DNA of 64,000 bases from Candidatus Nitrospira allomarina (GTDB taxonomy: Bacteria > Nitrospirota > Nitrospiria > Nitrospirales > UBA8639). The notes below the pieces were generated by a model. The model saw nothing but the letters and a program-made list of their open reading frames with translations. It was not told the DNA's origin and made no database searches. Positions 3,246 through 52,096 of the stretch are shown one piece after another. The position numbers and the translations under genes are program-made. Location of the stretch: positions 3,221,001-3,285,000 of the forward strand of contig NZ_CP116967.1 in assembly GCF_032050975.1 (NCBI RefSeq), written 5' to 3'. Within the stretch, counting starts at the first letter, position 1; each line of letters opens with the position of its first letter.

Positions 3246-3446
3246 TTAGGTTTCTAGATATAAACGAAGGGTATTTTCATGTCCCAACGTGACATGTCCG
3301 ACTTTGCATTCTCCACTAAGGGAACAGGTGCGTTTGATCGCCAGCACGACTGCCGGGCTTTCATCAGAGCGATAAATGACATCTTCAATGCGAATTTCCA
3401 CCGCTTTTTCCTGATCTTCCTTGTCTAAGTATTCAGTTTCACTCAT
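3246..3446 (-). CDS. small acidic hypothetical protein
   Basis: A 66-residue protein beginning MSETEYLDKEDQ and ending NTLRLYLET. It is acidic at the N terminus and has a central EIRIEDVIYRSDESPAVVLAIKRT stretch followed by CSLSGECKVGH, with two closely spaced cysteines. The ATG at 3446 is preceded by AAGGGG at good spacing, which favours it over the upstream TTG at 3452. I do not recognise a family. The ribosome-binding site and protein-like composition argue that it is real. Its neighbours give no functional hint. Confidence 0.55.
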   Translation of the reverse strand: MSETEYLDKEDQEKAVEIRIEDVIYRSDESPAVVLAIKRTCSLSGECKVGHVTLGHENTLRLYLET

Positions 3447-4355
3447 GAACAACCCCTTGTTAATTTTGAACGTTTAACCATGTGTCTGTTTTCCAATAGA
3501 CCAAGAACCGTGCCAGAAATTCCTGAAAAGAAATAGGTGAAATACTTGAAAACCAGGTAAGTTTTAGCTTTTTTGTGCTGTGGGGATTTTGACACCGGGC
3601 AAGGACTGCCAGGGCTAGGTAAAAACGATTTGCTGGATTTTCCCTGGATAATGACAACAGGAAAAGAGGGCCGATATTCTCCTTTGCTCCGGAAGGAGAG
3701 AAATGAAATAGGGCATTCGACAGCAGTCTACCGGTTCAGTGTCCTTGGGTTCCTCATCAGGGGATGGAAAGTGGTTTGTCCCTAGGGGTCTTCAGCTTAA
3801 GGTGGTGCGGGTGCAGGGCTCCATCGGAATGCAACCTAATGCAGCAGACTGCCCTCCGCCCAAATGGGCTGAGGCATTGGCCCAGGTGTTTGCCACCCTG
3901 GCAAATGAGGATTGGACGTTTCGTTTGGTTATACAGTGAAAATCCGAGTAGAATCGTTGGACGTTTCAATATTATTTGTTGGTAGTCTCTCGATAGCTGA
4001 CCGTGTTTCCCTCTACCCGTTGGGTTGGTGTTCGTAACTGCGAATAATCAGTTGAAAAATGCAGGGCGCCCCTCACTGACTCCTTTCTTTCGGACCTTTG
4101 AGTGGAATGTTTGCGAAATTTTCCCTGGCGGATACTTGAAGGAAATACAATATCCCTGAGTTGGAAAGATCAGTCCAGGAATGAGGAAAGGGGTGATTCA
4201 GTTCCGAGACATTGTGGCAGTAAAAGCCGCGGAACATAAGAAGTGAGATATCGATATGAGAATTGAAGGTGTTAGTGGAAACCAGTTAGCATTTATGAAG
4301 GCCAGGGGACCTTATGCCTTTTGACTAAGCACGGGTGGCGATTTGCTGTGATAGG
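3447..4355. other. 900-base intergenic region with two hairpins, no supported gene
   Basis: No frame here matches a family or has a good ribosome-binding site. Short frames overlap on both strands between 3573 and 3985 but look random. Two adjacent hairpins are visible: TGGGC/GCCCA at 3865-3884, and TTTGCCA-CCC-TGGCAAA at 3889-3905. Neither is followed by a T run. The right end is the region downstream of trpA, where I found no convincing terminator. Confidence 0.4.
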
Positions 4356-5153
4356 CTAGAGGCCCGATTTCCATTGTTGTGCCATGCCCTGGATATCGGT
4401 GAGAAAAGTCTGGGCGGAATGGTGTTCATGAATGTATCGAACCAGGGCGCTTCCAATAATAACTCCATCCGCAAATTGTCCAACTTCTCTGGCTTGCTCG
4501 GCGGAAGAAATTCCAAATCCCACTGCCACAGGTTTTCGTGAGGCTCGTTGAAGCTGTTGGACGCTTTGGCGCACCACACTGAGATCGGTCAGCTTGGCAC
4601 CGGTAATACCGGTAAGAGAGACATAATAAATAAAGCCATGTGATCGCTTGATCACAGCACGTCGTCGTTCCGCCGTGCTGGTGGGAGCAAGCAGGAAAAT
4701 ACACACCGGTCCTCCCGCCGCTTGAGTGGCGTGATAAAGAAGGTCGGATTCTTCCGGAGGCAAATCCGGCACGATGAGTCCATCGACGCCCGCGTCAACG
4801 GCATTGGCACAAAAATCTTGGATCCCCATGGCCATGAGGCTGTTGTAATAGGTCATCAAAATAAGGGGAATAGACGTTGTTTTTCTCAGGTTGGCGACAG
4901 TGGCAAGGATATTTTTAAGCGTTGTCCCTGAGTGCAGGGCCCTTTCTGCTGCTTGTTGAATCACCGGACCATCGGCGATAGGATCCGAAAATGGCACACC
5001 CAATTCGATCAGGTCGGCACCCCCCTGTTCCAACGCTAATACAAGAGATTCGGTCATTGCCAAGGTCGGATCGCCAGCCATGATGTATGGGATAAAGGCT
5101 TTTTTGCCCTTGGAGTGGAGTTGTGCAAATGTGCCTTGAATGCGATTGCTCAT
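4356..5153 (-). CDS. trpA: tryptophan synthase alpha chain
   Basis: Cleaves indole-3-glycerol phosphate to indole and glyceraldehyde 3-phosphate, passing indole to TrpB through the alpha2beta2 tunnel. The 265-residue protein is the standard length. It shows the family signature LIELGVPFSDPIADGP, with the catalytic Glu and Asp, then GVDGLIVPDLPPEE, the glycine-rich phosphate-binding loop around VAVGFGISS, and GVIIGSALV near the C terminus. The ATG at 5153 gives the usual N terminus (MSNRIQGTFAQL); a TTG at 5168 is a less likely start. It is the last gene of the trp operon, 80 bases after trpB. Confidence 0.96.
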   Translation of the reverse strand: MSNRIQGTFAQLHSKGKKAFIPYIMAGDPTLAMTESLVLALEQGGADLIELGVPFSDPIADGPVIQQAAERALHSGTTLKNILATVANLRKTTSIPLILMTYYNSLMAMGIQDFCANAVDAGVDGLIVPDLPPEESDLLYHATQAAGGPVCIFLLAPTSTAERRRAVIKRSHGFIYYVSLTGITGAKLTDLSVVRQSVQQLQRASRKPVAVGFGISSAEQAREVGQFADGVIIGSALVRYIHEHHSAQTFLTDIQGMAQQWKSGL

Positions 5154-5233
5154 ATCAGAACATTTCAAATGTGATGGAAGACCTGGCGGCTTTCCTGGCC
5201 TGGTGATTCTCGGGCCACTGAGTTTGCCCGCTC

Positions 5234-6427
5234 CTAGAGAGGAATCCCGCGCATTTTGGCTAATTGTTGAACATCTTTATCTCCGCGCCCGGAGAGATTC
5301 ATGATTAAGATCTGTGACTTTTTCATCGTGGGCGCCAGCTTGACGACTTCTGCAATGGCATGGGCACTTTCTAGTGCGGGAATGATGCCTTCTTCCTTGG
5401 CGAGCAAGTCGAACGCGGCTAAGGCTTCAGCATCCGTTGCGAAGGTGTACCGGATTCGTCCGGTATCATGATAGTAACTGTGTTCAGGACCGACTGCCGG
5501 ATAGTCCAATCCGGCAGACACTGAATGTGTGGGATTGACTTGACCGTCCTCGTTTTGGAGAAGATAGGTCATCGTGCCATGTAAAACGCCGGGTATTCCT
5601 CCTGCAAAGCGCGCGGCATGTTTCCCGCTATCTATCCCGTACCCGCCGGCTTCCACGCCGACCATCTTGACTTGTGTATCATTGACAAACGGATAAAATA
5701 ATCCAATGCTATTGCTGCCACCGCCGACACAGGCAACAAGACAGTGAGGCAAACGACCTTCCAGTGCAAGGATTTGCTTTCGGGTTTCTCGACCAATCAC
5801 GGATTGAAAATCCCGAACCATCATGGGGTAGGGATGGGGGCCCAGGACCGATCCAAGCAAATAGTGAGTCGTGCTGACATTGGTGGTCCAGTCACGCATC
5901 GCTTCACTGATGGCATCCTTGAGTGTGCGGCTTCCGGAATTCACCCCCGTCACTTTTGATCCAAGTAACCGCATTCGGAAGACATTCAATGCCTGTCGTT
6001 CCATATCCTCGGTGCCCATATAAATTTCGGCCTCTAGACCGAACATGGCCGCTACCGTAGCCACCGCTACCCCATGTTGTCCGGCTCCGGTTTCGGCAAT
6101 GACGCGTTTCTTTTTCATTCGTCTGGTAAGCAAGGCTTGCCCGACGGTATTGTTGATCTTGTGCGCACCGGTATGACAGAGGTCTTCTCTTTTGAGGTAA
6201 ATCTTGGCTCCACCAAGTGTTTTGGTGAGACGTTCGGCGAAGAATAGGGAAGTCGGGCGACCGACAAATTGTTTCAAACAATTCAGAAATTCTTGTTGGA
6301 AGGGCCGGCTTTTTTTTGCGGCACGATACGCCTGTTCCAATTCATGGATGGCAGGCATCAGGATTTCCGGAGCATACTTGCCTCCAAACTGTCCGAAGCG
6401 CCCGTGTTTATCAGGTATGATTGCCAT
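5234..6427 (-). CDS. trpB: tryptophan synthase beta chain
   Basis: The PLP enzyme that condenses indole with serine to give tryptophan. It is 397 residues, the standard TrpB1 length. Visible motifs are [12 protein letters not shown] at the N terminus, HTGAHKINN with the PLP-binding lysine near residue 90, ETGAGQHG around 113, and the phosphate-binding [10 protein letters not shown] near 230. The C-terminal region contains LSGRGDKD. The start ATG is supported by an upstream purine-rich AAAGAGGAGG. It lies between trpF and trpA in the operon. Confidence 0.97.
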
Positions 6428-6481
6428 AAAATGTTCTACTGAAAGAGGAGGTAAAAAGAAAAGAGTATAGCGATGGAATGG

Positions 6482-7111
6482 CTAACACACAAGACGAACC
6501 GATTGGATAAAATCCCGAATTTTGGCCGGATCTTTACGCCCAGGACTCTGTTCCACACCGCTACTCACATCGACCCCATAAGGTTGCACTTGGCAAATGG
6601 CTTCTTGAACATTTTCAGGAGTTAATCCTCCTGCCAACAGCATGGGAACGGCTTTGGCTACTTCGCCCGCAAGCGACCAATCGGTCGTGTGCCCGGTTCC
6701 TCCGTACGCGGTAGTAGAAAATGCATCAATGATAAATCCTCTCACGCCTATCCGTCCTTTCCATTCTGCCAATGCGAGATAGCTGCTTTTATCTCTTAGC
6801 CGAATGGCGCGGAGCACCGGACGCTGTAACGATTCACAAAAATTGGGCGATTCGTCACCGTGAAGTTGTGCCAGACTTAATCCGCAATCATCGAATACGC
6901 GCCTCACCATATCGAGATCGTGATTGACGAAGACGCCCACCGTCACCACAAAAGGGGGAAGGCTGGCAATGATATGTTGGGCGATAGCAGGTTGGACATA
7001 TCGAGGGCTTTGGGCGTAAAACACAAAACCCAACGCGTCAGCTCCTTCCTGAACTGCGAATTCAGCGTCTTTCTGATTCGTGATGCCGCAAATTTTTATT
7101 TTGGGGGCCAT
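6482..7111 (-). CDS. trpF: phosphoribosylanthranilate isomerase
   Basis: Converts N-(5'-phosphoribosyl)anthranilate to CdRP by an Amadori rearrangement, the third step of the tryptophan branch. The 209-residue protein has the (beta/alpha)8 layout of the family, with KICGITN at the N terminus (catalytic cysteine), GFVFYAQSPRYV, LHGDE in the middle (general acid/base region), LLAGGLTPENV and the closing GVDVSSGVE. A 154-base gap separates it from trpC upstream, the largest spacer within the operon. That gap holds no gene I can support. Confidence 0.96.
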   Translation of the reverse strand: MAPKIKICGITNQKDAEFAVQEGADALGFVFYAQSPRYVQPAIAQHIIASLPPFVVTVGVFVNHDLDMVRRVFDDCGLSLAQLHGDESPNFCESLQRPVLRAIRLRDKSSYLALAEWKGRIGVRGFIIDAFSTTAYGGTGHTTDWSLAGEVAKAVPMLLAGGLTPENVQEAICQVQPYGVDVSSGVEQSPGRKDPAKIRDFIQSVRLVC

Positions 7112-42362: not shown

Positions 42363-43166
42363 ATGGCCTGGTCTCAATCCGCCAATCTCAACTCTTTAGG
42401 CAATCGCCATTTTTCCAAAGGTTTTTATACCGAGGCTTTTCAATGTTATGCGCAAGCACTAGAAGTTGATCGTCAAAATGGAGACCAACGGTCGTTGGCC
42501 ACCACACTGGGCAATTTGGGTAACATTTGCGCCGTGAGTGGTCGTCGGGAACAAGCCAGAGCCTATTATAGTGAGGTGTTAGAGCTGCAAAAAATTCTGG
42601 GTGATGAACGGGGGATTAGTACGACTTTAGCCAATTTGGGTAACCTGTCGGCCGATGCTGGCGAATGGGAACGCGCCCGGGCGTATTATCTTGAAGCTTT
42701 GGATTTAATGAATCAGTTGTCCGACTATGCCGGAAAGGCAGTGTTACTCTCCGATTTGGGATTAGTCGCGAGGGAAACGGGCAAGGAAGAGGATGCGCTC
42801 GCCTTTTACCAGGAATCCTTGATCTTAATGCGTCGGGTCGGGAATGAGGCCGGACAATCCGATGTCTTTCGTATGATGGCACGGTTATATTTAAGTCAAC
42901 GACGATTTGAGGAGGCGCAATCCTGTATCTTGACCAGCCTGGATGTTGCCAGACGGTTGAAAGATGAACTGCGAATGGGCGGTGCCTGGTATGTTCTTGC
43001 CAGTTGCCATGAAGCCCAAGGTCAATGGAGCCAAGCCGTGCATTACTTACAAAAAGTTGTACGCATAGACCAAAAATATCAACTGCCAAAACTCAACGAA
43101 AATACACAGCGACTACGGGCTTTAGAATTCCAGCTGAGCGCCAGAACTGGAACAACTCATGAGTGA
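42363..43166 (+). CDS. TPR repeat protein
   Basis: A 267-residue soluble protein built of about five to six tetratricopeptide repeats, 34-40 residues each, such as TLGNLGNICAVSGRREQARA and TLANLGNLSADAGEWERARA. TPR arrays mediate protein-protein contacts. There is no signal peptide. It overlaps the next gene by 8 bases, suggesting a shared role with the 146-residue protein. Confidence 0.85.
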   Translation: MAWSQSANLNSLGNRHFSKGFYTEAFQCYAQALEVDRQNGDQRSLATTLGNLGNICAVSGRREQARAYYSEVLELQKILGDERGISTTLANLGNLSADAGEWERARAYYLEALDLMNQLSDYAGKAVLLSDLGLVARETGKEEDALAFYQESLILMRRVGNEAGQSDVFRMMARLYLSQRRFEEAQSCILTSLDVARRLKDELRMGGAWYVLASCHEAQGQWSQAVHYLQKVVRIDQKYQLPKLNENTQRLRALEFQLSARTGTTHE

Positions 43167-43599
43167 GTCTTGCACTCCTTCAACTCTATGGCCTGATGCC
43201 AAAATTTATCTTGTGGATGAAATTCACGGGTGGATGGATATCGATGCTATGGAAGCTTTAACCCTTCCCTTACCGGACGAGGACTGGTTGCTTGAAATTA
43301 CTGCCGACGGCAAGCTGGTGTGCATGGCGGGATACGACCTGGAGGATATGAAAAGCATGCTGTCGGATGGGACGCCAGAGGATTTAGGAACCGACGAACT
43401 TGCCAAACAAGCCAAATTTTACCTACAACAGACTGTTTCCAAATACCGGCCAAAGCTCATGCGTCTCGGTTTCACCGAACGGATTGAGATGAATGAGTCG
43501 CATGTGGCCGCTTACTATGAACGCCCGGTGGACTTCGGAGACCTTGCTGACCTCCATCAACAAATCAAGACCTGTCTGACATGGTTCTCAACGCACTAA
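43159..43599 (+). CDS. hypothetical protein coupled to the TPR gene
   Basis: A 146-residue acidic protein without signal peptide or membrane segment. The centre (DEDWLLEITADGKLVCMAGY) looks like a beta-sheet domain and the end (LADLHQQIKTCLTWFSTH) is helical. I recognise no family. Its ATG lies 8 bases inside the TPR gene. Confidence 0.6.
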   Translation: MSESCTPSTLWPDAKIYLVDEIHGWMDIDAMEALTLPLPDEDWLLEITADGKLVCMAGYDLEDMKSMLSDGTPEDLGTDELAKQAKFYLQQTVSKYRPKLMRLGFTERIEMNESHVAAYYERPVDFGDLADLHQQIKTCLTWFSTH

Positions 43600-43651: not shown

Positions 43652-44677
43652 GTGAAACCGATTCCAATTTCCATTAAATCCTTCAAGCAATTTCGAGAGG
43701 CCGTGTATGCCTTTCGATTGCCAAGAATTATTTTCTCAGCATTAGATTTAAATTTATTTACGAAGATGAATGATCGGGTTTGGACGATTCCGGAGTTAGC
43801 CAAACGAGTACGGGTGAGCCAACGTGGACTCGCAATCTTGTGCCGGAATCTTGCCAGTGTCGGATTATTGGTCAAGTCACAATCAGGATACCGTCTTGCT
43901 CCGTTTTCCAAACGCTATCTCCAGGAATCCAGCAGGGACTTTCAAGGAGACTATCTGGCGCTCATGCAGCGTCAATGGAGCGAATGGTCTCATTTAACGG
44001 AAGTGATTCGTGTCGGTCAGCCACTGGACAGCCAGGAACCGGAAACCACGGAATATCGACGATCGTTTTCCTGGGCCATGCATCACCGGTCGATCCAACC
44101 GGCCAGGGAGGTTGCCCAACAGATTTCTCTGAAGGCGGATCGCACCCTACTGGATTTAGGCGGGGGACCTGGCACCTATGCTCTGGCCTTCTTAGCGCAA
44201 AATCCAACACTTCACGTTACAGTGATGGATAGGCCTGCCGCTCTGGACGTCGCGCGTACGCTGGCGGAACAGTCTTCTTTGGGTAGTCGCTTGACCTATC
44301 AAGCTGGTGATTTTTTAACAGCACGCATCTCAGGAACCTATGATGTTGTCTGGTATTCCAATGTCCTTCATATCTATTCTCCTGCAGACAACTTGAAAAT
44401 TTTCAAAAAAATTAAACGAATTCTCAATCCTGGTGGACGGCTGCTCATTCAAGATACCTTTTTGCAGGATCCAAACGAACTTCAGCCCCTTGAAGCCAAT
44501 CTCTTTGCCGTCTCCATGTTGCTCTATACCCAACGGGGCAACACCTATTCCGTGCGAAATGTTCGAGAGTGGCTTCAAAGAGCTGGACTCACTCATTCAC
44601 GGCTTCTTCATCTGAAAAAGGGAACAGGGGATTGGGAGGGTCAATTGGTTGAAGGACGCCTTCCGCGTTCTGGATAG
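43652..44677 (+). CDS. SAM-dependent O-methyltransferase-like protein
   Basis: A 341-residue class I methyltransferase with the layout of the caffeate/hydroxyneurosporene O-methyltransferase family. An N-terminal winged-helix dimerisation domain (TIPELAKRVRVSQRGLAILCRNLASVGLL) is followed by a SAM-binding domain with motif I LLDLGGGPGTYALAF, VTVMDRP, and LLIQDTFL. It starts with GTG and lacks a clear Shine-Dalgarno sequence. The substrate is unknown. It is the last of a plus-strand run from 40862. Confidence 0.82.
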   Translation: MKPIPISIKSFKQFREAVYAFRLPRIIFSALDLNLFTKMNDRVWTIPELAKRVRVSQRGLAILCRNLASVGLLVKSQSGYRLAPFSKRYLQESSRDFQGDYLALMQRQWSEWSHLTEVIRVGQPLDSQEPETTEYRRSFSWAMHHRSIQPAREVAQQISLKADRTLLDLGGGPGTYALAFLAQNPTLHVTVMDRPAALDVARTLAEQSSLGSRLTYQAGDFLTARISGTYDVVWYSNVLHIYSPADNLKIFKKIKRILNPGGRLLIQDTFLQDPNELQPLEANLFAVSMLLYTQRGNTYSVRNVREWLQRAGLTHSRLLHLKKGTGDWEGQLVEGRLPRSG

Positions 44678-44778: not shown

Positions 44779-46959
44779 TCAATCAAGATTGGGGAGTTCG
44801 GACGTTGGGGACACACTCTGGGCTGGAGAAACTGATGTGGGTGCTGGAGAACTTGGGAGATTCACAAGAAACGTGGTTCCCCCTCCTTTCACACTTTGGA
44901 CCTCAATACTTCCCCGATGTTCTTGAATGATTTGATGGGCAATGGCCAATCCTAAACCTGTTCCCTCATGTTCCTGACTCAAGTGCTTTGTGGTGAAAAA
45001 AGGATCAAATATATGGTCGATGTCTTCCGGATTTATCCCTTTCCCAGTATCGTGTATGTCCACCTGCACCCAACCCTGAGCCACACCTGATCCAATCTTT
45101 CGAGTCCGCACCGTTAACACCCCACCCTCCGGGAGCATGGCTTCCACGGCATTAAACAACAGATTGAGGAACACCTGCTTCAATTGCTGCCGATCGGCAA
45201 ATACCTTTGGCAACCCATGAGCCAAATCTGTCTCGACAACAATTAATTCATGAGAGGGTCGAATTCTGAGGGTATACAGACAGGATTCCACAATATCATT
45301 GAGATCTTCTTCCTTGAGAAACGGTTCGATGGGTTTGGCATAATCCAAGATCTCTCGAGTGAGCCGCTCAATTCGAAACACATCTTCTTTGACGACCTTA
45401 CTGAATCGAACCAGAAACTGTTCATCATCCTTTCGTTCAGGTGCCAGATCCACAAAGGCTTTAATCGAGGTCAAGGGATTTCTAATTTCGTGAGCCAATC
45501 CGCCGGCCATGGTCTCCAGAGAACGAAGGCGATCCGTTCGACGAACTAACGATTGGGAGCGCTTGAGCTCTTCATAAAGCAAGGCATTGTCTAACGCTAC
45601 GGACGCTTCTTGGGATAAGGTTGTTAATAAATTCAAATCCTGGGTCGTGTACCCCCCTCCACTTTTTGTATTAGGTCCAAACACACAAAAACCTAATAGC
45701 CGGGTTTTGTTAACCAAGGGCAAACAAACTTCTGTTCCAATATGGGCGAGCTGCGCGATGACGGCTTCCGAGTCGGAGTTGATGGTAGAGAGTTCCAATT
45801 CATGGATGACAAAACAGGACGTGCCTTGTCTCCACATTTCGAGCAACGTAGGCGTTTTATGCAAATAGAGAACTGGAAGATCTGTGGTGGATTTTCCAAA
45901 GCTGGATACCGGTCGATAATCCTGACTGCTGGAGCTTCGTAAATATAAAACTCCCCATTGCAATCCTAATGTGGGACAAATGGATTCCACGATAGTTGCC
46001 GTCAAATCTTTTAATTCCAAGATGGAGAGGAGGGACTTAGAGAAATGTACCACAGTTTCATGTCGATTATATCGTTCCTTGAACAGTGATTTCGTGATTA
46101 ATGTTTTTGCTTCCCGCTTCAAGGAGGACGCTCCAAGCACCAAGATGAGCAACACGGTAAGTTCTACAAAAGAATAGGCGATATTAATTTGTCCAAAATA
46201 CAGACTCTGGCCAAGGAGGAGGATCGGATAGGCAGGGAAAGCCACGAGTGCCAACAAGAGGCCTCCCGTGATGCTTCTTTCAACAGCCGTCCCGAGATCC
46301 ATGAGTCTGTATCGTAGGAGCGTATAGGCGACGACCGACGTATAAACCGTCAGTAGGATTGTGCCGTTTGGTGGGATTTCAATTCCATACCAGAGCGGAA
46401 AAGTCGTCATTCCCCCTAAGTATGCAATGACTGATCCGATAGTGAGAAGGAAAAATCGGGAACGTTCAGGACCAGTTCTGGTCCGAGCTCCCCGATAAAG
46501 CAACCACGTGCCATAAATAGTCGATAAGCCAAATCCCAGGAGATAGACATGAAAAAAGGGACCGGGTTTCGGCCAAAATGGAAAATCACCGACATGATGG
46601 ACATCAGCCACGAAATAGGTGGTAAAATTCGCGCCGAAATAAATAAGACTTGCTCCCCATCCAAAACGGATAATCCATCTGTTTGCTTCCACATCATCCA
46701 ATAAGGTCAGGACGTGCCACAGGTAGGCTGGGGGAAGAAAAATGGCTCCGGCCATTAACAATCGAACAAAGAGCAGGGCAAGGTCGTGAGTGGAGGAAAG
46801 GTGCCATGCGCAATACCCGTATCCCCAAATGGCGGCAGCTAAACAATACAGGGCATAGGCTTGATGCTTGGAGCTATGAGGATTTTTGGCATAGACAATA
46901 AGGCCGGAGGCTGTGGCGGCCAGACCATTCAGGAGTCCGCTGAAGGCGTAAAAATTCAC
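44779..46959 (-). CDS. 7TM-GAF histidine kinase
   Basis: A 726-residue membrane sensor kinase. Residues 1-220 form about seven transmembrane helices of the 7TM histidine kinase N-terminal type. Two further helices lie at residues 230-280. A GAF-like domain follows at 300-460. The HisKA dimerisation helix carries the phospho-accepting His490 in GGLAHEIRNPLTSIK. The ATPase domain has NLLFNAVEAM, DTGKGI and GTGLGLAIAHQII. The tail is Ser/Pro-rich. The start codon is GTG. No response regulator is adjacent, so its partner lies elsewhere or the kinase feeds a shared regulator. Confidence 0.88.
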   Translation of the reverse strand: MNFYAFSGLLNGLAATASGLIVYAKNPHSSKHQAYALYCLAAAIWGYGYCAWHLSSTHDLALLFVRLLMAGAIFLPPAYLWHVLTLLDDVEANRWIIRFGWGASLIYFGANFTTYFVADVHHVGDFPFWPKPGPFFHVYLLGFGLSTIYGTWLLYRGARTRTGPERSRFFLLTIGSVIAYLGGMTTFPLWYGIEIPPNGTILLTVYTSVVAYTLLRYRLMDLGTAVERSITGGLLLALVAFPAYPILLLGQSLYFGQINIAYSFVELTVLLILVLGASSLKREAKTLITKSLFKERYNRHETVVHFSKSLLSILELKDLTATIVESICPTLGLQWGVLYLRSSSSQDYRPVSSFGKSTTDLPVLYLHKTPTLLEMWRQGTSCFVIHELELSTINSDSEAVIAQLAHIGTEVCLPLVNKTRLLGFCVFGPNTKSGGGYTTQDLNLLTTLSQEASVALDNALLYEELKRSQSLVRRTDRLRSLETMAGGLAHEIRNPLTSIKAFVDLAPERKDDEQFLVRFSKVVKEDVFRIERLTREILDYAKPIEPFLKEEDLNDIVESCLYTLRIRPSHELIVVETDLAHGLPKVFADRQQLKQVFLNLLFNAVEAMLPEGGVLTVRTRKIGSGVAQGWVQVDIHDTGKGINPEDIDHIFDPFFTTKHLSQEHEGTGLGLAIAHQIIQEHRGSIEVQSVKGGGTTFLVNLPSSPAPTSVSPAQSVSPTSELPNLD

Positions 46960-47211: not shown

Positions 47212-49542
47212 TTATGCCACTTGCTTCAGAATCTCTGGCAGCTGGTTTCGGATAGAGCATGGTTCTGCATTTTGGATGATTGGCTTTTGCGCTGGTGTGC
47301 AGACAATAGGTTTGTCTAAAACAACGAGATACGCTTGTCCTGCAAAAGTTGAAAAAATACCCGCATTCGTACAGCCCAGGGTGGCGATGATCGATTCCCA
47401 TTGGGTTTGATCATAAAAACAAAATTGCCCTTCTTTTTCGGCCTGTCGGATTTTCCCGTAATTATTCAATAGATCCCGTGCTTCCTCTCGTTGTTGTGGG
47501 AGAACAGCACTACTGACCAGACTCTGGTAGATGCCGGAAAAGTCCCCATTCGGTTTTAAATTGGAAATAACGATTCGTCCCCCTGGAGCGAGAATACGAT
47601 ACAGTTCTCGTAAGGTAGCGCCTGGATCCTGGACATATCCAATCACCAGATTGGAGACAATCCGGTCGAATCGGTTGTCGGGAAAGGGGAGCGGCTGACC
47701 TAAATCTACGTGCGCCCATGCCTTTGAGACGAAGGGTGTCGGCGAGGTCATGCCATGTTGGCAATTTGTGGTGGCGGCACGCATGGCGTTGTTAGCCCGT
47801 TTCAACGCGTCAGGAACGACATCAATCCCCACATATTGAATGTACTTCTCTAGGAACGGGATCCCAGTCGAAATGGTAGAGGAAAGCCTATTCAAAAAAT
47901 ATAAGCCGGCATTGCCATTTCCACATCCGGCATCCAGAAACCGTTGGCCAGGAGTGATGGGGCCTAAGACATGAAATACATGATCAAGAAGTTTCACATA
48001 ATCCCGGCATTGGGCTACCGACTGGAAGTGGCCCAAGTAATCCTGCCAAAAGCCGGTGCCGACGTCGGTCTCGGCCTGTTGTTGTTGAGCAGATTTTTCC
48101 CGTCGATTTTGGCGTCCCAGGTCTAATCGATTGGGGGTGTGGATCACATCCGGCTTTGCTTTCTGATTCACTTGCTCATGGCATCGTGCAATGAGTCGTT
48201 GATAGGTTTCACGGGCTCTTTTGGGGTTTTCTTGTAGGCGATGCAAGGCATCTGGTACCACCATCCAATGCTCAAGATGTCGATCCAATGCATTCCGAAA
48301 CGCTTGAAGATCATCGGGAGCAACCCAGGCATCCTTTTCAGCGGAAACCAGGATGACAGGGGAGGTTAGGGATTTCGCATCAAACAGTGTGTGCTCAAGC
48401 GTGACAAATTTGTTGGCAATGGCATCACCCAAAAATTGATTGCCCACATTGAAGCCCAAAAAATTTGCCGAGGCAGGGCACTGCTCATTCCCATAGGCTG
48501 CAAAGAGATCTTCCTGATGAACCGTGGCTGCAGACCGTTGGACATTGACAATGCTCATGAGCATGATCAACAGGGATAATGATGGACATTCGGCCTCGGC
48601 TCTGAGAGCGACCCGCGAGGCCAAGCTGGCCGCCACACCGATTATGGCTGAGTGCGGCCAAGTAGCCTTCACATATCGGGTTACAGTCTGAAAATCATTT
48701 TTCATTGATGAAAGGGATACCTGATAGTGCAGTCCATCACTCTCGCCGACATGATTGGTATGGTCATAGCGCACGACTTGAAATCCATTACTGGCAAAGT
48801 AATACGCCAAGGTCAAATAATCCCGTTTTGTTTCCCCATACCCCGGGGCAATAACGACGACAGGTCTTTCTGTTGAATTTCCCTCAATCGGTTGGTCATG
48901 GTAGGCACTAATCCGCTGCCCATTGCCTTTTTTAATGGTGAGACGACTGCTGGATACGCCCGTTTTTTGAAGAATAAGGGACCCACCCTTCACTTCTTTT
49001 TCCTTCTCACGAAAAGAAACAATTGATATTGCGTCGGAGAGTTCGTGGTTAAGCATTTTCCAGGATGAATTGAACGAACCATTCAAAACATGTCCCTGTA
49101 CCATGAGACTCTCTTCTTCAGGGAGCAGAACTCTCGTACCGGACGAAAAGGAACCCATGGCATCATTCTCTGTTGGGCAGTCTAAAAGAATGTTAGTTGT
49201 CCCTTCCCAAGCGGTTTGACCTGGTTCCACCTGTATATCTTTAATCATTCCATGAAACTTTTTGAGAGGGAGATCTTGACCTGAAATGCCATATTCCAAC
49301 TCAATGATCTGCGAGAGTTCTATGGGAGGGAATCCGGTCAAACGCAATAGCATATTGTTTTTGTGCCCTCCAACAAGATACCCGTCCCAAACCCCTCCCA
49401 GGCAATGCAAAGAGAAGGGAAGTGGCGAGAGGTCACGTATTCCAGAAGGATCACCAGGAACTAACTCCTGAGATACCTGCTTCAATCCAGCAAATTGATG
49501 CATTGAAGTTATTCCTGCCAACTCTGGTGTCAATGTGCTCAT
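47212..49542 (-). CDS. LuxD-like acyl hydrolase fused to a SAM methyltransferase
   Basis: A 776-residue cytoplasmic fusion. Residues 1-200 are an uncharacterised N-terminal domain with beta-strand character. Residues 208-460 are an alpha/beta hydrolase resembling LuxD, the myristoyl-ACP thioesterase of bacterial luminescence: VVVIAPGYGETKRDYLTLA, NGFQVVRYDHTNHVGES, then GVAASLASRVA with nucleophile Ser306, Asp404 in SAEKDAW and His434 in DALHRLQEN. Residues 495-720 are a class I methyltransferase with FLDAGCGNGNAG (535 on), DRIVSNLVIGYV and APGGRIVIS. It may release and methylate an acyl or polyketide product, which is inference. No lux genes or carrier proteins are near. Confidence 0.75.
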   Translation of the reverse strand: MSTLTPELAGITSMHQFAGLKQVSQELVPGDPSGIRDLSPLPFSLHCLGGVWDGYLVGGHKNNMLLRLTGFPPIELSQIIELEYGISGQDLPLKKFHGMIKDIQVEPGQTAWEGTTNILLDCPTENDAMGSFSSGTRVLLPEEESLMVQGHVLNGSFNSSWKMLNHELSDAISIVSFREKEKEVKGGSLILQKTGVSSSRLTIKKGNGQRISAYHDQPIEGNSTERPVVVIAPGYGETKRDYLTLAYYFASNGFQVVRYDHTNHVGESDGLHYQVSLSSMKNDFQTVTRYVKATWPHSAIIGVAASLASRVALRAEAECPSLSLLIMLMSIVNVQRSAATVHQEDLFAAYGNEQCPASANFLGFNVGNQFLGDAIANKFVTLEHTLFDAKSLTSPVILVSAEKDAWVAPDDLQAFRNALDRHLEHWMVVPDALHRLQENPKRARETYQRLIARCHEQVNQKAKPDVIHTPNRLDLGRQNRREKSAQQQQAETDVGTGFWQDYLGHFQSVAQCRDYVKLLDHVFHVLGPITPGQRFLDAGCGNGNAGLYFLNRLSSTISTGIPFLEKYIQYVGIDVVPDALKRANNAMRAATTNCQHGMTSPTPFVSKAWAHVDLGQPLPFPDNRFDRIVSNLVIGYVQDPGATLRELYRILAPGGRIVISNLKPNGDFSGIYQSLVSSAVLPQQREEARDLLNNYGKIRQAEKEGQFCFYDQTQWESIIATLGCTNAGIFSTFAGQAYLVVLDKPIVCTPAQKPIIQNAEPCSIRNQLPEILKQVA

Positions 49543-49999: not shown

Positions 50000-52096
50000 A
50001 TGCCACACGAATCCGCCCCACCCATCCGTAACGTGGTCATTTGTTCCTACCCGGGGGCAGGAAAGACCACCCTTTGTGAAGCACTAGCCTTTTCCACGGG
50101 AGTCATCCCGACCATGGGGTCCATTCCTCAGGGAAATACCATGGGTGATTTTGAACCCGAAGAGGTCCACAGGCATCATTCCATTAGTTCGACCATCTGC
50201 CAGTTCGAATGGCAGGGCACAAAAGTCAATATTATAGATACACCGGGAATGAGCGATTATGGCTTTGAGGTTCAATCCGCCCTCAGGGCGGTGGATGGCG
50301 TGGTGCTTGTTGTAGGGGCCAGTACAGGGCTACGGTCAGAAATCGAACGAGTCTGGGACCTTATTCAGGAACACGAACTTCCCTGTCTCCTGTTTGTTAA
50401 TGAACTGGATAAAGAACGAACAGACTATCGCTCGACTTTGGCAGAGTGTGAAAAAACATTGGGATTCACCGCAGTTCCAATCACCATTCCTGTTATAAAA
50501 GAAGGCACGCTGACTGGGGTAATTGATCTCATTTCGAGGAGTGTCATAACTCCGGCCTCCGGCACGCCCAAAACCCACCAAACAGAGATTTCTCCAGAAC
50601 ACCAATCCATGGCTAGTGAATTCCGGCGCCGAGCTATGGAACAGGTGGCAGAAACGAATGATCAATTGGTGGAAAAATATCTCTCCCAAGGTGAGATCTC
50701 AAATGAAGACTTACAGGATGGATTGACGCTCGGCACATTAGACGGGAAGTTTGTTCCGGTGTTGTGCGGATCTGCTATTCGCAATATTGGAACCACAACC
50801 CTATTCGATGCGATACAACGTTATCTCCCGTCTCCTTCCGATCGTTCCAGTCTTCATCCCAACATCGGCCTGCAACCTCAGACCCATGACGAAGGTCAAC
50901 GAAAATCTGATCCTCATGATCCATTTTCAGCCTTCGTCTTTAAAACCACCATCGATCCATTTATGGGGCGTCTATCATTTGTGCGAGTGCTGTCCGGGAC
51001 CTTACAGGCAGATTCAGGATTTTATAATGCCTCCCGGCAGACCAAGGAGAAGGGTGGACATCTTTTTTTCTCGGTGGGCAAGAAGCATCACCAGGTTAAT
51101 CAGGTCTCCGCCGGAGATATTGTGGCCATTGGTAAATTAAAAGATACTCAAACCGGCGATACCCTTTGCGATGAACGACATTCCATTATTTTCCCAGGAC
51201 TGAAAATAGCGCGGCCGGTCATGTCGTATGCCTTAGAGGTAAAAAGCAAGAATGAAATTGACAAAGTCAGTTTAGGTCTTCATAAATTAGTTGAAGAAGA
51301 TCCCTCTCTCGAGTTTCTCCGGAATGAAGAGACAAAGGAAATGCTGTTAAGTGGAGTAGGGCAGAGCCACATCGATGCCACTTTAGACAAACTGAGACGC
51401 AAGTATGGTGTTGAGGTGGACTTGCACATGCCGAAAGTCCCCTATAAGGAGACGATCCATCGTATGGCTCAGGCCCAAGGAAAATATAAAAAACAAACCG
51501 GTGGACATGGACAATATGGAGATTGTTGGCTACAAATTGAGCCTCTTCCCCGAGGGGCTGGATTTGAATTTCACAACAAAATTGTTGGTGGGGTCATACC
51601 ACGGAATTTCATCCCTGCGGTGGAAAAGGGAGTGATCGAGGCTCTGCAACATGGGATTGTTGCCGGATTTCCCATCGTGGACATTCGCGTGGCTGTCTAT
51701 GATGGATCTCACCATCCAGTTGATTCTTCGGAATTGGCCTTTAAAGTGGCCGGATCAATGGCCCTCAAGCATGCCCTGGAGGCCGCTCACTGCACGATTC
51801 TTGAACCCATCATGTCCGTAGATGTGCTAGTCCCGGATGATTTGGTAGGAACCGTGATTGGAGACCTTAACTCGCGCCGTGGACGCATACAGGGAATGGC
51901 GACTAAGGGACACAATCAAATTGTGAAGGCCTTTGTGCCGTTAGCGGAAATGCTGAAGTATGCTCCTTCCTTGACGTCCATGACGGCTGGAAAGGGTAGT
52001 TATGTGATGGAGTTTTCGGGCTACGAGGAGGTACCGAAGGATTGTCTTAATCGTATTGTGGAAGAACATAAAAAGGAAACTGTTTCGTCCCACTGA
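50000..52096 (+). CDS. EF-G-like GTPase (FusA2-type) with altered G motifs
   Basis: A 698-residue protein with the full EF-G domain order. The GTPase domain has a P loop SYPGAGKTT (residues 16-24). G3 reads DTPGM (80-84), where EF-G has DTPGH, so the catalytic histidine is missing. G4 reads NELD (134-137), where NKxD is the rule. Domain II (DPFMGRLSFVRVLSG) and domains III-V follow (GGHGQYGDCWLQI, GDLNSRRGRIQGM). It belongs to the EF-G2-like paralogues of unknown role, not the translocase. The start is strongly supported by GAGAGGAGG. It is divergent from the LuxD-like fusion. Confidence 0.85.
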   Translation: MPHESAPPIRNVVICSYPGAGKTTLCEALAFSTGVIPTMGSIPQGNTMGDFEPEEVHRHHSISSTICQFEWQGTKVNIIDTPGMSDYGFEVQSALRAVDGVVLVVGASTGLRSEIERVWDLIQEHELPCLLFVNELDKERTDYRSTLAECEKTLGFTAVPITIPVIKEGTLTGVIDLISRSVITPASGTPKTHQTEISPEHQSMASEFRRRAMEQVAETNDQLVEKYLSQGEISNEDLQDGLTLGTLDGKFVPVLCGSAIRNIGTTTLFDAIQRYLPSPSDRSSLHPNIGLQPQTHDEGQRKSDPHDPFSAFVFKTTIDPFMGRLSFVRVLSGTLQADSGFYNASRQTKEKGGHLFFSVGKKHHQVNQVSAGDIVAIGKLKDTQTGDTLCDERHSIIFPGLKIARPVMSYALEVKSKNEIDKVSLGLHKLVEEDPSLEFLRNEETKEMLLSGVGQSHIDATLDKLRRKYGVEVDLHMPKVPYKETIHRMAQAQGKYKKQTGGHGQYGDCWLQIEPLPRGAGFEFHNKIVGGVIPRNFIPAVEKGVIEALQHGIVAGFPIVDIRVAVYDGSHHPVDSSELAFKVAGSMALKHALEAAHCTILEPIMSVDVLVPDDLVGTVIGDLNSRRGRIQGMATKGHNQIVKAFVPLAEMLKYAPSLTSMTAGKGSYVMEFSGYEEVPKDCLNRIVEEHKKETVSSH

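Follow-up and report, generated by a model that had tools for sequence, protein, structure and literature searches.

LuxD is the acyl-ACP thioesterase/acyltransferase of luminous bacteria, and CheR and CheB carry out the reversible carboxyl methylation of chemoreceptors. BioG-BioC is a fusion of a hydrolase and a methyltransferase that acts on acyl-ACP (PMC3494674). In the 3-OH PAME/MAME quorum sensing of Ralstonia, the methyltransferase PhcB makes a fatty-acid methyl ester and the kinase PhcS, whose gene belongs to the same operon, senses the product (PMC8578825). The open-access papers searched contained no description of a LuxD-methyltransferase family in Nitrospira.

The locus described here lies in a 64,000-nucleotide stretch of the genome of Candidatus Nitrospira allomarina (hereafter the window; contig NZ_CP116967.1, positions 3,221,001 to 3,285,000). 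A sequence-only reading had recognised a LuxD-like acyl hydrolase fused to a SAM methyltransferase and had considered the enzyme on its own. That view overlooked a conserved membrane histidine kinase encoded immediately downstream, and this context is more informative than the fusion itself.

Results

The 776-codon frame lies exactly where the sequence-only reading had placed it; the strand, which that reading left out, is minus (Table 1), and an ORF check found the plus strand of the same interval crowded with stops. The frame is free of stops, and its product keeps about 60-90% identity over its whole length across many genomes of the genus, which marks it as a genuine gene and not a chance frame. 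The genome is a single 4.55-Mb contig with one full-length copy. Of 49 genomes in the window's family, 28 have relatives, as do 91 of the 396 Nitrospirota genomes sampled; the latter count takes in paralogues with a dead catalytic triad. Apparent plasmid-borne relatives were rejected as matches to the methyltransferase part only. A scan of the locus for promoters and terminators gave matches no more numerous than in shuffled sequence.

Table 1 Features of the fusion gene and its partner kinase (window coordinates)
Feature	Position	Strand	Basis or remark
Hydrolase/SAM methyltransferase fusion gene (P0001)	47212..49542	minus	776 aa; ATG at 49542, end at 47212
N-terminal beta-barrel, degenerate PilZ-type (probable), residues 36-153	49084..49437	minus	AlphaFold2 strands, HHalign chain
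LuxD-like alpha/beta hydrolase domain, residues 196-457	48172..48957	minus	family profiles, PDB sequence, AlphaFold2 model, Foldseek
Ser306, nucleophile candidate	48625..48627	minus	aligns with LuxD Ser114; invariant in triad-intact members
Asp404, putative triad acid	48331..48333	minus	aligns with LuxD Asp211
His434, putative triad base	48241..48243	minus	aligns with LuxD His241
Class I SAM methyltransferase domain, residues 472-743	47314..48129	minus	Pfam, AlphaFold2 model, fold search
SAM-binding motif I LDAGCGNG, residues 536-543	47914..47937	minus	glycines invariant in intact members
Partner histidine kinase, 726 aa, 7TM (PF16927)-GAF-HisKA-HATPase	44779..46959	minus	conserved same-strand neighbour
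7TM sensor region of partner kinase, residues 14-222	46294..46920	minus	PF16927 E=1e-11

An AlphaFold2 model of the full protein, built with 33 related sequences (pLDDT 77.5, pTM 0.76), is laid out as a beta barrel, an alpha/beta hydrolase and a Rossmann methyltransferase with the boundaries of Table 1. The nearest known relative of the hydrolase is LuxD, whether judged by family profiles, PDB sequence or predicted fold. The domain matches the Pfam family PF02273 (Acyl_transf_2) with E=1.8e-26 and 93.5 bits, passing the gathering cut-off of 20.3 bits, and the NCBIfam LuxD model NF052253 with E=3.1e-27 and 95.7 bits, a score that does not reach the 420-bit membership cut-off. On profile score, then, it falls outside the LuxD equivalog family. 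Residues 203-450 match the LuxD sequence of PDB 1tht (E=3.9e-20), and a Foldseek search of the whole PDB with the predicted hydrolase fold also returned 1tht first (E=5e-18, 23% identity; TM-score 0.83, normalised to 1tht), with feruloyl esterases and monoglyceride lipases ranking behind. The sequence-only reading would have been refuted had the closest homologues been ordinary hydrolases with no relation to LuxD. This was not so, for LuxD leads the hydrolase matches by family model, by PDB sequence and by PDB fold.

The LuxD triad spacings that the reading gave are correct, and a HMMER alignment puts Ser306, Asp404 and His434 in register with LuxD Ser114, Asp211 and His241. The three residues would form a LuxD-type triad, with the geometry that these alignments imply. 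Our survey covered 114 loci, 55 with an intact triad and 59 with a dead one. All 55 intact members preserve the triad; at two of these (L075 and L076) His434 falls in an alignment gap and another His lies nearby.

The fused methyltransferase also bears out the earlier proposal, matching PF13489 (E=7.4e-16) and PF08241 (E=5.6e-14). Both the Rossmann methyltransferase fold and a GxGxG motif I are present, as in class I SAM methyltransferases. Modelled alone (pLDDT 83.7), the domain has Coq5, PMT, SpnF, RebM, CouO and CmoA as its nearest folds. These are generic, and reading a substrate or a choice among O-, N- and C-methylation from the fold was rejected.

The N-terminal domain, previously listed as unknown, is probably a degenerate PilZ-type barrel, to judge from its AlphaFold2 strands and a chain of HHalign comparisons. 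The N-terminus of the window protein links to that of sister genera at 96%, and the sister genera link to a PilZ-bearing group at 97.6%; the direct comparison of the window protein with that group is weak (7%). Pfam does not recognise the window barrel, and the window protein lacks the motifs RxxxR and [DN]x[ST]xxG, as do all sampled members of its family. Both occur in many relatives outside the family, and Pfam PilZ domains precede the hydrolase-methyltransferase module in other genera (L063, L081, L069, L074, L064 and L062). These transitive profile links indicate that the window barrel is probably PilZ-derived and has probably lost c-di-GMP binding. Since the c-di-GMP motifs are gone in the window's family, the role of the barrel in the window organism is probably structural; c-di-GMP control of the enzyme there was rejected for a barrel that carries neither motif. 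The canonical motifs of many relatives suggest c-di-GMP gating of their enzymes.

Directly downstream of the fusion gene, on the same strand and across a gap of 252 nt, lies the gene of a membrane histidine kinase. The gap is about 150-250 nt in the window's genus and only 3-33 nt in several lineages, and in one genome (G323) fusion enzyme and kinase form a single protein of 1641 aa. The kinase is retained beside the fusion gene though the surrounding gene order varies among Nitrospirota lineages. Pairing of the hydrolase-methyltransferase with a membrane kinase is well supported as a conserved feature across Nitrospirota. A multi-pass membrane kinase accompanies all 51 intact proteins that have an adjacent kinase; 49 match the 7TM profile, and the other two (L075 and L076) carry another kind of multi-pass region, as assessed from a hydropathy count and visual inspection. 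The remaining four of the 55 comprise three loci at or near contig ends and one genome, G017, in which no kinase adjoins the fusion gene.

Within the window the fusion gene has no immediate neighbour that encodes a carrier protein, an exporter or a response regulator. The earlier statement that no lux genes are near extends further, as no LuxC (PF05893) was found anywhere in the genome. In another genome (G273) an NtrC-type regulator and a REC-HD-GYP regulator follow. NtrC-type regulators in the window genome are too many for a partner of the kinase to be singled out among them. A stand-alone REC-HD-GYP protein is encoded at about 3.42 Mb of the same genome (L185 7714-8733, plus strand); its REC domain and the one in the regulator of the L080 operon are 55% identical, and on this resemblance it is a candidate response regulator for the window kinase, as a lead only.

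Other features of the neighbourhood may be recorded here. In genus g12 the partner kinase (L063 8342-11350, plus strand) is about 1002 aa long and apparently has two tandem 7TM regions. Convergent to the window kinase are genes, all on the plus strand, for a BchU-like O-methyltransferase (43652-44677), a 146-aa protein without a Pfam match (43159-43599) and a TPR protein (42363-43166), and the three are kept together in this orientation throughout family f1. Divergent from the fusion gene is the gene of an EF-G-type protein (50000-52096, plus strand) that scores just over the TIGR00484 cut-off and has PRK12740.1-5 as its best model; this neighbourhood is conserved across the family.

None of the 59 triad-dead paralogues has a membrane kinase. 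A soluble kinase of about 425 aa comes directly after 56 of them (at the other three it is not next), and it is usually followed by a sigma-54 regulator and then a REC-HD-GYP protein. The dead paralogues are about 1200-1450 aa long, with REC-PAS-PilZ in front. Their triad Ser is replaced by Asp or Gly and fold-forming residues are retained; in the methyltransferase, changes are frequent at positions that include G543, Y502, E702 and F709. The full architecture, REC-PAS-PilZ-PilZ-(dead LuxD)-(eroded methyltransferase), belongs to a widely conserved pseudoenzyme signalling operon in Nitrospira (loci include L062, L064-L068, L073, L078, L079 and L098-L103).

Catalytic residues and membrane sensor have been lost jointly. 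The link between triad and membrane kinase is essentially one event, because the tree needs a single change for the split between intact and dead proteins; independent repeats of the joint loss were rejected on the same ground. The result is one strong co-occurrence, to which L075 and L076 are partly independent. These two loci (3382-6201 and 4203-6917, both minus strand) come from other families and encode a hybrid kinase whose multi-pass region has no Pfam name.

In two distant relatives a FabF gene lies directly upstream of the fusion gene (L071 853-2091, plus strand, and L072 7927-9177, minus strand; genomes G264 and G363), at roughly 250-270 nt. Both proteins score above the TIGR03150 cut-off. 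They look like extra copies, because each genome has a stronger-scoring FabF elsewhere. This adjacency points to acyl-ACP substrates, and no other feature of the gene surroundings does so; it is confined to these two distant loci, with no further FabF-linked member in 31 and 149 additional genomes. The window genome has, at about 3.85 Mb, a second FabF (L187 8716-10349, plus strand) whose next gene resembles that of an acyl carrier protein and which may be a source of special acyl-ACP.

Discussion

The adjacency of fusion gene and kinase suggests, but does not prove, that a small lipid-like signal is made by the enzyme and detected by the kinase. We propose that the fusion protein may be the synthase of a methylated acyl signal and the partner kinase its sensor, an interpretation whose chances we put at about even. 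We infer the substrate, product and signalling of the pair as follows. The hydrolase would take over the acyl group of acyl-ACP (or acyl-CoA), forming an acyl-Ser306 intermediate on the way, and the methyltransferase would methylate the acyl product. The simplest outcome would be conversion of the carboxylate to a fatty-acid methyl ester, and C- or hydroxyl-methylation could also occur. Carboxyl methylation is only a guess, because the methyltransferase fold resembles Coq5, RebM, CouO and CmoA about equally. The lipophilic product would arrive at the membrane, where the 7TM part of the partner kinase would detect it. The kinase would then signal to a response regulator, whose gene adjoins the pair in some relatives and lies elsewhere in the window genome. 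The LuxD and methyltransferase domains could also act on unrelated substrates.

The close pairing of the genes and their fusion in G323 would suit a sensing or adaptation module with no diffusible signal, in which the fusion protein either modifies its partner kinase by reversible carboxyl methylation, in the manner of CheR and CheB, or binds and tunes it according to acyl metabolism. A Ser-Asp-His hydrolase and a SAM methyltransferase formally make a methylating and demethylating pair, and the dead branch, which keeps the fold and a kinase partner, implies that part of the role is non-catalytic. However, opposing activities held one to one in the same protein would form a futile cycle if left unregulated, the closest relative of the hydrolase is an acyl-ACP thioesterase (LuxD) and not CheB, the methyltransferase has no CheR match in Pfam, and the FabF adjacency leads to acyl chains. 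We consider this explanation unlikely, if worth keeping in view.

The fusion protein might instead be an ordinary tailoring enzyme, expressed under the control of the neighbouring kinase, that acts in lipid or secondary metabolism, for example in making a methylated fatty acid or polyketide. Natural-product and quinone enzymes are indeed the nearest methyltransferase folds, and the window genome has the extra FabF with an ACP gene elsewhere. Yet no biosynthetic cluster surrounds the gene in the genomes viewed, and the conserved partner is a kinase rather than a biosynthetic gene; we hold such a role to be improbable.

A part in pimelate (biotin) synthesis, in which a BioH/BioG-BioC-type fusion would methylate malonyl-ACP and later cleave the pimeloyl-ACP methyl ester, is disfavoured and has very little chance of being right. 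In its favour, Bacteroides fragilis has a comparable hydrolase-methyltransferase fusion (PMC3494674), the window contains a bioA-like gene at a distance of 12 kb, and no BioC in the genome passes the cut-off. Against these points, the methyltransferase ranks only 14th among the BioC matches of its own genome, at about 30-31 bits against a TIGR02072 cut-off of 184.95, and the neighbour is a kinase. Moreover, bioF lies elsewhere and is found both in close relatives that lack the fusion gene and in genera whose sole version of it is the dead one. A LuxD in the original sense, supplying fatty acids to the LuxCE aldehyde pathway of luminescence, has homology to LuxD in its favour and is scarcely credible for a protein that scores far under the LuxD equivalog cut-off in a genome without a LuxC family protein.

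Extending the signal-synthase proposal to the phylum, Nitrospirota, marine nitrite oxidisers among them, may have a cell-signalling system of their own, made up of a LuxD-methyltransferase synthase (c-di-GMP-gated in most lineages outside the window's family) and a 7TM kinase. The large dead branch in Nitrospira would then be a soluble receptor-like pseudoenzyme whose signalling partners are a cytoplasmic kinase, a sigma-54 regulator and a c-di-GMP phosphodiesterase. Taken as a whole, this larger picture is tentative and rather doubtful.

Nitrite oxidation in oceans, soils and treatment plants is driven by Nitrospira-type bacteria, which form dense aggregates. If they have a signal of their own derived from acyl chains, it would give a handle on coordination among these nitrite oxidisers. 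The family forms a natural series from an active enzyme with a membrane receptor to a dead enzyme with a soluble kinase, and within one protein family it links lipid metabolism, c-di-GMP and two-component signalling.

The locus has several described counterparts, from each of which it also departs. The hydrolase has the fold of LuxD (1tht, NF052253, PF02273), about 23% identity to it, the Ser-Asp-His residues in register and a common RYDxxxHVGxSxG segment; unlike LuxD, the fusion protein adds a probable PilZ-type domain and a methyltransferase domain, lies apart from lux genes and has a kinase partner. BioG-BioC likewise joins an alpha/beta hydrolase and a SAM methyltransferase in one chain. 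It differs in that the window hydrolase is nearest to LuxD, the methyltransferase falls below the BioC cut-off, and the context holds a kinase partner and nothing of biotin synthesis. Relatives of the fusion protein resemble PilZ proteins (PF07238) in having one or two PilZ domains, many with both motifs, whereas the barrel of the window's family has lost both. The partner kinase shares its 7TM region with PF16927 7TM kinases and matches PrsK (XrtA/PEP-CTERM, TIGR02916) over GAF-HisKA-HATPase, but at 144.7 bits against a cut-off of 300 bits. To our knowledge, PhcB has no hydrolase or PilZ domain. PhcB-PhcS nevertheless offers a parallel for the pair, a methyltransferase and a histidine kinase in one gene cluster, and the likeness is one of idea and gene arrangement.
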